DNA from: Bacillota bacterium
GTDB taxonomy: Bacteria > Bacillota > Dethiobacteria > Dethiobacterales > Dethiobacteraceae
Length of the DNA: 46,961 bases
NCBI GenBank assembly: GCA_018725565.1
Contig: QLUR01000021.1
Location: 1-46,961, forward strand
Direction of reading: 5' to 3'
The position numbers and the translations under genes are program-made. The notes under the pieces were generated by a model. It made no database searches. It worked only from the letters and a program-made list of their open reading frames with translations, and was not told the DNA's origin. Below, in pieces: positions 39,320-46,961 of the stretch; the stretch's first letter is position 1; the number at the start of each line of letters is the position of its first letter.

Positions 39320-42300
39320 GTGAACGCCATGCTGTCCGCCTTGGCTGACATCTGCCGCCGGGAAGTCTTCCGGGAAAAGATCGTGGTTGTCCCTTCGCAG
39401 AGCCTGGGTCACCAGTTGCTGGAGGCTTTGAGTTCTGCCGGAGTGCCCTGGCTGAACGTCCGTCCCGCCACGCCTTTCGACCTGGCGCAACAGGTAGCCG
39501 CCACCGACCTCTTCCGCGATGGGAGAGTACTCCTTAACGCCGGTCAAACAATAGCCCTTGTGGAAGAAGCGCTGTCAAACATGGCTGCCGCCGGCCAACT
39601 CCGTTATTTTGCCCAGCTGCAGGAAACGGGCGACTTGGCCCGCCTGCTCCACGAAACGGTGCAGGAGCTGCGCCTGGCCGGCCTCACCGCTCTCAGCCTG
39701 CCCCCCCGTGCTTTCGTCTCCCCGCAAAAAGGCAGCGAGCTCAAAAGACTGCTCTGCCTCTACGAAGCTGCTCTCCGCCAACGCGGCCTAGCTGACCAGG
39801 CGCTGGTCTTCCGCCTTGCATTACAGGCGGCCTGCTGCGGCCGGACCCCCTTTCGCGCCGCCCTGTTTGTCATCCCCTCGGAACAGGAGTTCCCGCCGCT
39901 GGTCCACAGTTTTTTGTCCCGGCTGTCCGCCGGTGCCCGCCAGGTCCTGCCAGCCGAACCGGTCCGCGGCCTGTACGCTCCCAGCGGCTGCTCCTTTCCT
40001 GCCGGGTCGGAAGTCCGGGAAGAGTCGCTCTTATCTCGGCTTTACGATCCGCCGGCCGGCCGGTCTAGCCCCGGCGCAGAAATCTTCGGCGCCTACGGTG
40101 CGGCCAATGAACTGCGCGAAGTGCTGCGCCGCCTGAAAGATGGCGGACTCCCCCTGGACAGCGCTGTGTTAATCCATACCTCCTCTGAAACCTACCTCCC
40201 CTTGGCCCACGCTCTGACCTCCCGCTTGGGCCTGCCCGTCACCTATGCCGAGGGACTGCCGGTTCGCTGCACTCGCCCCGGACGCCTGGCACTGCAACTG
40301 CTGCGCTGGCTCGCAGACGATTATGCTTCCGCATCTTTTGGCCGTATCCTGACCGGCGGCGATATAAACGTCCCCTCCCCGGAAAAACTGGCGCGGGTAT
40401 TACGCCGCTGGCGCGTCGGCTGGGGGCGGGACCGTTACCTGTCGTGCCTGCCAACCGGAGGTCAGAGGTCAGAAAGCGGAGGTCAGAGCTTGGACCCCGA
40501 CCTCCGGAAAGCGACGATTGACGAGGCGACAGTGAGTCTGAGGGAGATTCTGGAGAAGCTGCTTGCCGCCCTGCCGCCGGCCGGCCCGGACGGCCACCTC
40601 CATTATCCATCCCTGGCCCGCGGCCTGTTGGCCGCCCTGACCGCCTTTTCCCACACTTCTACGGAAGCAGACCGCCAGGCGCTCGAAGCCTTGAGCGAAA
40701 ATCTGACTGAAGCTGCCGATGAGTTCGGGGGCTCCCTGACGACAAGGCAAGCGCTCATCAGGTTGCACCGCCGCCTGGGCGGCCTCGCTTCCGGTGCATC
40801 AGCCCCAAAACCCGGCGCTCTTCACGTTGCCTCCTACCATAACGCCTGGTTTACCGGGCGAACCCACGCCTTCGTGGTGGGTCTCTCCGCCGGAAGCTTC
40901 CCCGGCGGCGGCCTGCAGGACCCTGTTCTCCTGGACGGCGAACGTCGCTGCATCTGCAAACGTCTCAGCTTACGCGAACATGTACCGCTTAAAAATACTC
41001 TGTCCCTGGTCCGCCTGCTGGCATCCCACCGCGGCCGCATTACCTTGAGCTACCCCTGTTACGACCCGGCAGAAGGGCAGCCGGCATCACCCTCCGGTCT
41101 GCTCCTGCAGGCTTGGCGCCTGGCTTCGGGTGATACGGGCGCCGACTACAGCACCATGCTGGGGCAGCTGCCGCCTTATGCCACATATGTGCCGGACGAC
41201 CCGGCCGACAGCCTGGATCAGGACGAATGGTGGATGGCCGCTGTGCTGCGAGGCCGCCACTCCGCAGGTTCGGAGAGCGTGTCTGCCTGTTACCCGGGAC
41301 TTGGCCGCGGGCTGCTCGCCGCCGAAGCCCGCAGACGCCCTTTTTTTACCCCCTTTGACGGCCTGGTGGCCGTGGACCCGGCTGCACTGGACCCGCGCCG
41401 GAACCCGGAACTGGTACTGTCTTCCTCGCAGCTGGAAAAGCTTGCCGCATGTCCCTTCAGTTATTTTCTCTCTCATGTGCTGCGCGTACTTCCTGCTGAC
41501 GAACCCGTTTTTGCCGCCGGTGCCTGGCTGGACAACCTTTCCCGCGGCTCCCTGCTCCACGACATCTACTGCCGCTACCTGCGCGAGACTTACCCGCCCG
41601 GCGGCCCGGCGGCAGCCCCGGACAAAGATCGGCTCTTAACCCTCGCCCATGAAATGATCGAACAAAAGCGGGGGGAGATTCCCCCTCCTGCCGAACGGGT
41701 CTTTGAATACGAGCGCGATAATCTGCTGCGTGACCTGGAGGTCTTCTTCCACCTGGAAGCGGAGCATACCTCCGCACCTGCTTTCTTCGAAGTGCCCTTC
41801 GGAGCCTCCTCCGACGACATTGCCGCGGCCGGCCTTGGCCAAAGCGATGCCGTGACGCTTGCGCTTCCCGACGGCAGTACCGTACGCCTGCGCGGCCGCA
41901 TTGACCGCCTTGACCGTGCTGAGGAAGGGCACTGGGAGGTCTGGGATTTCAAGACCGGCAGCGCTTACAGTTACAGCGACCACGAATATTTTCGCCAGGG
42001 CCGTCAGCTCCAGCACGCCCTCTACGGCCTGGCCGCCGAGGTTATTCTGCGTCAGTGCGGGGTGGACAATGGCGCACAAGTGCGGTTAACAGGCTACCTT
42101 TTCCCGACGGAGAAGGGAGAGGGCCAGCGCTTTAACCGGTCCGCCGCCTCCCGGGATACAGCCCTGAAAGTGCTGGCCAGGCTGCTTGACCTGGCTGCGT
42201 CAGGGGTGTTTAGCGCCTCCCATGAAGAGGAACGCTGTTATTATTGCGAGTACAAAACAGTCTGCCGCACACCTTCCATGGGACAGAAAGTCAAAGAACT

Positions 42301-45751: not shown

Positions 45752-45789
45752 GCTACAACTGTAGCGTACACTGTAGCAAATGCTGTAGC
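45752..45789. promoter_or_regulatory. Phased TGTAGC repeats, candidate enhancer-binding-protein site
   Basis: TGTAGC occurs at 45760, 45772 and 45784, an exact 12-base period. The first copy is also the right half of a perfect palindrome GCTACA-AC-TGTAGC (45752-45765). The repeats end 74 bases before the -24 element of a sigma-54 promoter, in the range where bacterial enhancer-binding proteins bind. Confidence 0.55.
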
Positions 45790-45862
45790 GGTTTGACTAG
45801 TGTTTGACCGGCAGAATTTAGCAGATTATAATGTTTTTGTAGCAGGGTCAAGTATTCTGGGA

Positions 45863-45879
45863 TTGGCACACACTTTGCA
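45863..45879 (+). promoter_or_regulatory. Sigma-54 (-24/-12) promoter of the fatty acid transporter gene
   Basis: TTGGCAC (45863-45869) and TTGCA (45875-45879) place GG and GC exactly ten bases apart, a near-perfect match to TGGCAC-N5-TTGCW. The predicted start is near 45890, giving a leader of about 305 bases before ATG 46196. AtoE-type transporter genes are under sigma-54/AtoC control in E. coli, which supports the call. Confidence 0.8.
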
Positions 45880-46161
45880 TGCTGTAACAAATGCAGATGT
45901 AAAAATATTTTGCTTATTTAGGATAACCGGCAGTACAAAAAGACTTAAGACTTTTTCAGGCAGTATGTTAAACCTTCTACGTTGTCAGGCAGTAAAAAGT
46001 TTAATGAAAGCGGGTGAATGTCTGGGTAGATAAAAATAATTTGCTTTAATGACTAACCGTAGGGTGTACGACGGAGAATGGAGAAACCTAATTTAATGGT
46101 CAGGAGGGAGTGCAAGAACTCAGGACGCCAGAGCAGTGAGCCTAAAAATACTTCACAAAAT

Positions 46162-46198
46162 TGGAGGTGAATGGCAGGCCTAGGTCTGCCGCATAATG
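46162..46198 (+). promoter_or_regulatory. Shine-Dalgarno bridged by a hairpin to the atoE start
   Basis: A strong TGGAGGTGA (46162-46170) is 26 bases from ATG 46196, too far for normal initiation. Between them GGCAGGC-CTAG-GTCTGCC (46173-46190) folds into a 7-bp stem (one G-U). When it is folded, only 7 unpaired bases remain between the Shine-Dalgarno and ATG. When it is unfolded, the ribosome would instead see ATG 46171, which opens a 21-codon out-of-frame ORF ending at 46236. Confidence 0.5.
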
Positions 46199-46921
46199 CT
46201 AAACACAATTACCAAACCATTTATACGCTTTGTTGAGAAGTATTACCCGGATCCGTTTATTTTTGCGATATTACTAACGTTCGTTGCTTTTATTATGGCT
46301 TTAATATTTACCGAAACCACAATTATCGGTGCTATAATGGCTTGGGGCAACGGATTGCATGGGCTGATGGCTTTCCTTGCACAGGTAGCGTTTACCCTGA
46401 TATCATCGACAGCTCTGGCCAATACGCGTCCGGTTAAAGGACTGCTGCGCAGACTGTCCGAGCTGCCCCGCAACGCGGCTGCCGCATATGCCTTAACTTG
46501 TTTTGTAGCTGCTATTGCCAGCTGGTTTACATGGGCGCTGGGTTTGATCGCGGGCGGTATTTTAGCCCGTAACATTCAGTTCTACGCGCAAAAAAGAGGA
46601 ATTAAGGTTCACTACCCGCTGCTTGTAGCTTCAGCATATTCCGGCTTTGTAATCTGGCATATGGGATATTCCGGAAGTGCGCAGCTTCTTGTTGCTACAG
46701 CGGGCCATCCCCTGGAAAAACTGGTAGGCATAATTCCGGTTTCTGCCACTACTTTTGCCCCTTATAATGTACTGGGGTTTTTATTCCTGCTGGTTACCCT
46801 TCCTTTGCTGATGGTTATTATAAAGCCGAAAGACAATGATGAATCAATCCGCGAACTGCCTCGGGAGGTCATCGCCGAAATAGATGAGTATTCCTGCGGC
46901 ATCCGGCCAGCAATCCTGTGA
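46196..46921 (+). CDS. atoE: AtoE-type short-chain fatty acid transporter, 3'-truncated
   Basis: ATG 46196 opens 241 codons. The sequence matches the N-terminal half of AtoE family transporters (about 440 residues): FVEKYYPDPFIFAILLTF, WGNGLHGLMAFLAQVAF, ALANTRPVKGLLRRL, the SWFTWALGLIAGG helix, and YPLLVASAYSGFVIWHMGYSGSAQLL. It imports short-chain fatty acids such as butyrate or acetoacetate. After about residue 233 the homology stops, and the frame runs into 22-bp repeats that supply the stop (residues SCGIRPAIL). The gene is therefore interrupted, probably by an insertion sequence. Confidence 0.85.
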   Translation: MLNTITKPFIRFVEKYYPDPFIFAILLTFVAFIMALIFTETTIIGAIMAWGNGLHGLMAFLAQVAFTLISSTALANTRPVKGLLRRLSELPRNAAAAYALTCFVAAIASWFTWALGLIAGGILARNIQFYAQKRGIKVHYPLLVASAYSGFVIWHMGYSGSAQLLVATAGHPLEKLVGIIPVSATTFAPYNVLGFLFLLVTLPLLMVIIKPKDNDESIRELPREVIAEIDEYSCGIRPAIL

Positions 46922-46960
46922 CATCCGGCCAGAGTTCTTGTCACATCCGGCCACAGTTCT
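46895..46960. mobile_element. Three 22-bp terminal repeats, likely end of an IS21-type element
   Basis: Three tandem 22-bp units start with TG and share ATCCGGCCA: 46895-46916, 46917-46938 and 46939-46960. Units 2 and 3 differ at few positions (TGTGACATCCGGCCAGAG versus TGTCACATCCGGCCACAG). Multiple roughly 20-bp repeats next to a TG terminus are characteristic of IS21-family ends. They begin exactly where atoE homology is lost. No transposase lies in the window, so the family is inferred. Confidence 0.55.
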
Positions 46961-46961
46961 T

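Follow-up and report, generated by a model that had tools for sequence, protein, structure and literature searches.

How can ribosomes initiate atoE when the strong Shine-Dalgarno (SD) sequence before the gene stands far from its start codon? The question arises near the end of a 46,961-nucleotide stretch of DNA from a Bacillota bacterium (the window), which is the whole of contig C27. A sequence-only reading of this DNA had pointed to a strong SD well upstream of the atoE ATG, to a 7-bp hairpin that fits between the two and leaves 7 unpaired bases, and to an ATG directly after the SD that opens a 21-codon, out-of-frame open reading frame (ORF) overlapping the atoE start. Our analysis confirmed all of these elements and their positions, which are as follows.

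46163..46170, + strand: Shine-Dalgarno GGAGGTGA, a perfect 8 nt, forming a -14.4 kcal/mol duplex with the assumed anti-SD
46171..46236, + strand: 21-codon ORF, out of frame with atoE, beginning at the decoy ATG 46171 and probably hardly translated
46173..46190, + strand: 7-bp hairpin, bridging from the SD to the atoE start, with a fold of -12.7 kcal/mol and base-pair probabilities of 0.97-1.0
46196..46884, + strand: atoE up to the insertion (5' part), coding for a short-chain fatty acid transporter (PF02667/TIGR00366); its 3' part lies on contig C1 (L068)

The anti-SD is assumed, as the genome's own 16S 3' end had no match in the assembly (0 matches). With 25 nt intervening before ATG 46196, against a 4-8 nt peak for sampled genes on the same measure, the SD is over-distant, and the best near SD of atoE reaches only -3.6 to -4.1 kcal/mol. 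The predicted hairpin (GGCAGGC-CUAG-GUCUGCC, 1 of its 7 bp being G-U) lies wholly within the gap and leaves 2 bases (46171-46172) and 5 bases (46191-46195) unpaired outside it; these 7 nt fall inside the range of about 5-11 nt that a split ribosome binding site should retain. The decoy ORF is in another frame than atoE and overlaps it by 41 nt.

Is ATG 46196 the true start? The 241-residue atoE product matches PF02667 from residue 1 (residues 1-227, 5.4e-59), and it matches TIGR00366 at 2.4e-58, with 198 bits for the 5' half, a score under the full-length cut-off because the gene is cut. Since both models match across the N-terminal half, we place the product in the AtoE / SCFA_trans family. 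An atoE-frame TAG in the hairpin loop (46181-46183) leaves no possible ATG, GTG or TTG start further upstream, so the start cannot precede 46196. We also compared relatives, 51 of 398 genomes having matched atoE, with loci taken from the best-scoring matches and 28 new ones read. A start was called in 32 of the 34 phylum and class loci (L089 and L098 gave none), and 31 of these 32 starts fall at atoE residue 1 or 2, one lying 11 codons upstream. Given that ATG 46196 is the sole start reaching the conserved N-terminus, and that relatives start at residue 1 or 2, we conclude that it is the atoE start and that its SD spacing is the odd one out.

The same evidence bears on whether a one-base indel, a sequencing error or a real change, parts ATG 46171 from atoE, such that the true protein begins at 46171. 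The two frames are indeed one base apart over 25 nt. However, the extension would add 8 residues to a protein whose readable relatives agree so well on the start, the SD spacing would be zero, and the atoE-frame TAG stands between 46171 and 46196; we therefore consider an indel scarcely credible. A frameshift from the 46171 ORF into atoE was rejected as well, the atoE frame being conserved from its first residues and inspection by eye having turned up no recognizable +1 shift motif.

All 32 called relatives carry an SD of -8.0 to -13.2 kcal/mol located 4-9 nt from the start, a count biased toward normal sites because starts were picked partly on SD strength. Seven further class loci were considered, and all 4 readable ones have a near SD at 6-10 nt, the other 3 (L124, L125 and L128, at contig edges) being left out of the count. 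Normally spaced SDs in relatives had been named in advance as an observation that would speak against the hairpin, and every readable distant phylum relative has one. These phylum and class relatives, however, are only 28-45% identical to the atoE protein, and for that reason we read the bridged arrangement as lineage-specific rather than without function. Searching the genome sets turned up no close relative: the best protein identity in one GTDB-wide scan was 49% over nearly the whole query, or 51% over part of it (L027), and at the DNA level the leader matched nothing in the class's other 96 genomes.

We also scanned 48 GTDB-wide relatives for a far SD with a paired gap, bearing in mind that start calls are less secure here than for the phylum loci and that many of the 48 have weak SDs. 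Seven rows from 6 loci emerged (L014, L015 twice, L025, L047, L048 and L049). Start calling preferred other starts in L015, L047, L048 and L049, the L049 candidate lying 18 codons upstream of the expected start; the L014 fold reaches merely -2.4 kcal/mol; and in the GC-rich L025 and L015 pairing takes up almost the whole gap (1-3 nt left). Thus, none of the 48 loci offers a clear second bridged case.

We then come to what the hairpin might do. The sequence-only reading had joined two ideas, namely that the hairpin restores the spacing, as in T4 gene 38, and that its melting allows a fold-dependent choice of start codon. In the predicted ensemble, the hairpin forms with a probability above 0.97 in both 65-nt and 432-nt contexts, and the stem is still folded at up to 70 C. 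Opening the SD alone costs 4.8 kcal/mol. In a 160-nt context, 7.2 kcal/mol is needed to clear both SD and atoE start of pairing if the hairpin is retained, against 18.2 kcal/mol for access to the SD together with the decoy ATG and 12 nt, making the decoy about 11 kcal/mol dearer. Given that SD pairing gains about 14.4 kcal/mol, the bridged atoE start is affordable, while the decoy is not. In the 432-nt fold part of the SD is taken up in pairs, its single bases being unpaired with probabilities of 0.03-0.67, and the atoE AUG is predicted to lie partly within a weak 3-bp helix.

These energies weigh heavily on the choice of start codon, in which melting of the hairpin would send ribosomes to ATG 46171, yield a 21-residue peptide and turn atoE off. 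The geometry is suggestive, in that ATG 46171 touches the SD and opens an ORF running across the atoE start, and a 30-codon ORF (46078-46170) stops inside the SD, where a terminating ribosome could melt the stem. Set against this are the energetic penalty, the zero aligned spacing of the decoy ATG and the near-complete predicted formation of the hairpin. Moreover, a 447-kb sample of the genome contains the SD-ATG junction GGAGGTGAATG a single time, where it opens only the 21-codon ORF and no gene, and the decoy peptide has no NCBIfam family match. The leader is also less stably folded than its shuffles (z +1.52) and contains no credible Rfam family, its sole match, AfaR, falling at 16.5 bits far below the gathering score of 100, as expected of chance. 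We consequently abandoned the start-choice half of the earlier interpretation as very improbable. The Rfam and shuffle results likewise gave no sign of a riboswitch or known leader RNA, and we saw no alternative fold of the leader.

A related switch would sense translation: a ribosome on the leader ORF would melt the 5' arm and reinitiate at 46171, with atoE off, and in an untranslated leader the hairpin would re-form, with atoE on. The TGA of the leader ORF does lie within the SD and abuts ATG 46171. Judged by eye, however, this ORF has no well-spaced SD of its own, and the support for such a switch is consequently confined to geometry; we hold it to be most unlikely.

Because the decoy is unaffordable, has zero spacing and sits at a junction seen once in the 447 kb, we favor a constitutive hairpin-bridged ('split') ribosome binding site over a switch, and assign this reading a probability of roughly 0.6. 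The 30S subunit would dock on the strong SD at 46163-46170, the 18-nt hairpin at 46173-46190 would loop out, and the working distance to ATG 46196 would shrink from 25 to about 7 nt, so that atoE would be initiated there. ATG 46171 would be an incidental start-like triplet, silenced through zero spacing as well as through the hairpin, which holds its G. The bridging half of the earlier interpretation thus survives as the best available reading, from which we infer use by ribosomes.

How often might such a hairpin arise by chance? Of 5000 dinucleotide shuffles, 70 folded at least as well as the 25-nt gap with its -12.7 kcal/mol; among 5000 mononucleotide shuffles, 6 did. Random genomic 25-mers folded as stably in 176 of 40,000 cases, and 89 of 60,000 were equally stable and also left 5-9 nt unpaired. 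At a milder bar (-6 kcal/mol, 5-9 nt left), 1532 of 20,000 25-mers passed; therefore, some bridging hairpin is not rare, but one of this strength is. None of these counts is a true p-value, the site having been chosen post hoc. The 36-nt piece from SD to ATG gave z -2.03 (8 of 200 shuffles equally good), and nothing stands out in the fold of the wider 91-nt segment (z -1.32; 19 of 200).

Our survey took in 447 kb of this genome (the window plus 20 stretches), with 384 long ORFs. A near SD (-7 kcal/mol or better, 2-12 nt from some in-frame start) was present in 322 of them and absent from 62, so a poor near site is itself not rare. A far SD (-10 kcal/mol or better, at 15-45 nt) precedes 6 of those 62. 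Among these six, atoE ranks first for its far SD (-14.4) and is alone in having a hairpin below -10 kcal/mol, the runners-up having -9.0, -8.5 and -8.2. In a looser set of 202 far-SD candidates, the best 40 included 3 hairpins that were more stable and 1 tie, each belonging to a candidate with a better in-frame start near an SD.

An explanation that must be weighed against these counts is that the site is weak or broken, a palindrome having arisen or inserted between SD and start and spoiled the translation of a declining gene, which an insertion sequence later disrupted, with the fit due to chance. Exact deletion of the hairpin would give the standard 7-nt spacing, as expected of an insertion, the readable distant relatives have their SDs at normal distance, and random 25-mers can fold this well, as counted above. 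The gene is, in addition, split by an insertion sequence. However, the ideal leftover spacing at this stability is seen in merely 89 of 60,000 random 25-mers, and we found no other decay, since joining the halves of atoE gives 451 codons free of stops, and the 5' half retains its 198 bits to TIGR00366. We consider a broken site unlikely, though it deserves to be kept in mind.

The interruption itself is clean and defines the end of the window.

46879..46884, + strand: AATAGA target-site duplication, 6 bp, with a second copy at L068:122-127
46885..46961, + strand: left end of a multicopy insertion sequence, which interrupts atoE and ends the contig

The genome contains 12 identical left ends of this element, the boundary coming from a comparison of 10, and 7 full-length right ends; the one at the atoE 3' half is L068:1-121, so that this half, on contig C1, adjoins the other end of such an element. 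Many contig ends of the assembly are breaks at the same insertion sequence. Its ends, TG...CA with several 22-nt repeats, presumably mark it as similar to the IS21 family. When the insert and one AATAGA copy are removed, the empty site forms an open frame of 451 codons. Because a clean insertion at 46885 splits this intact ORF, atoE is probably dead in this assembly, yielding a truncated product at most. Given that the 451 codons were open before the insertion, the bridged site would have served an open gene, and since that gene is now split, the arrangement probably persists here as a recent relic.

The region upstream suggests how atoE was transcribed.

45752..45789, + strand: candidate enhancer sites of a sigma-54 activator, a GCTACA-AC-TGTAGC palindrome and two TGTAGC direct repeats with 12-nt spacing
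45864..45879, + strand: predicted sigma-54 (-24/-12) promoter TGGCAC-N5-TTGCA, the only match in the window

The sigma-54 consensus occurs in 6 of 100 shuffled windows, and TGTAGCN5CTGTAGC is present twice against a shuffle mean of 0.03, the GCTACA half having been recognized by eye. The genome has rpoN (sigma-54), and a gene for a GAF-PAS-AAA-Fis sigma-54 activator (L068:862-2499) lies convergent, just behind the atoE 3' half on contig C1. We predict that promoter, TGTAGC repeats and activator gene form a self-contained regulon. The predicted promoter implies a leader of about 300 nt, in which no intrinsic terminator was found (0). A sigma-70-like site (11/12) is also present at 45804-45832.

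Several repeats were noted in passing. GGCAGTA occurs three times in the atoE leader (45929-45935, 45959-45965 and 45988-45994) at about 30-nt spacing, two copies being inside a 16-nt repeat. The leader also holds a 16-nt near-repeat, TAAAAATATTTTGCTT / TAAAAATAATTTGCTT, at 45900-45915 and 46031-46046, 131 nt apart. Elsewhere in the window, GGAGGTCAGAG-like units are repeated around 40460-40490, just 5' of a TTG in a long frame.

With the promoter placed, one can also ask whether the palindrome acts as DNA. The 18-bp near-perfect dyad GGCAG-N-CCTAGG-N-CTGCC would then bind a dimeric regulator, and the RNA hairpin would be a by-product. The symmetry is high, at 16 of 18 bases (46173-46190 has 0 mismatches on the forward strand and 2 on the reverse one), but the predicted promoter would lie about 290 nt upstream of such an operator. 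We also saw no sign of a family of such sites: allowing up to 3 mismatches gave 12 matches at 10 places, against 3 for a reversed control. The sole other symmetric match, C32:20433, lies just past the 3' end of another gene and resembles part of a terminator (contexts were read at 2 of the 10 places). An operator therefore seems improbable to us, and we retain the bridged ribosome binding site as the preferred reading.

If ribosomes use it, the atoE leader would provide a chromosomal bacterial case of a hairpin-held ribosome site, and gene finders that require a close SD could mis-score or mis-start such genes. The weight of this is lessened by the principle being already known and by the interruption of atoE in this genome. 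A search of the open-licence literature brought up no description of a bridged site in front of atoE, which is no proof of absence.

How does the locus compare with known systems? E. coli atoDAEB is sigma-54-dependent. In the available part of one source, atoDAEB is described as being under AtoSC (PMC3118216), and the accessible portion of another describes predicted sigma-54 control of atoE in the Clostridium AhcR / atoE-hbd-cotX regulon (PMC6615313). Our atoE is like both in having a predicted sigma-54 promoter in front, activator sites upstream of that and an adjoining activator gene; as far as these partial texts go, the likeness concerns transcription only, with nothing on a hairpin. Mechanism 1 of the E. 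coli polyamine modulon, as set out in the part of the source at hand, has a distant SD and a bulged-out hairpin and responds to spermidine (PMC7177335). Besides T4, it is another known setting for distant SDs. It shares with atoE an unusually distant SD, and its translation depends on mRNA structure between or around SD and AUG. Unlike the bulged hairpin of that account, however, the atoE stem is a continuous 7 bp with no bulge.

The closest parallels are T4 genes 38 and 25. According to the available part of the source, a hairpin shortens the SD-AUG distance from 22 to 5 nt in gene 38 and from 27 to 11 nt in gene 25, bridging in both is reported as demonstrated by mutation, and the gene 25 arrangement is limited to close T4 relatives (PMC3014915). 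The atoE numbers fit these well, an over-distant SD at 25 nt being cut to 7, and, within the same limits of the source, the lack of the arrangement in distant relatives of atoE resembles the situation of gene 25. Unlike the two T4 genes, atoE is an interrupted chromosomal transporter gene of a bacterium, known here from its sequence and predicted fold. With that difference, our best reading by analogy is that the atoE site would work like those of T4 genes 38 and 25.
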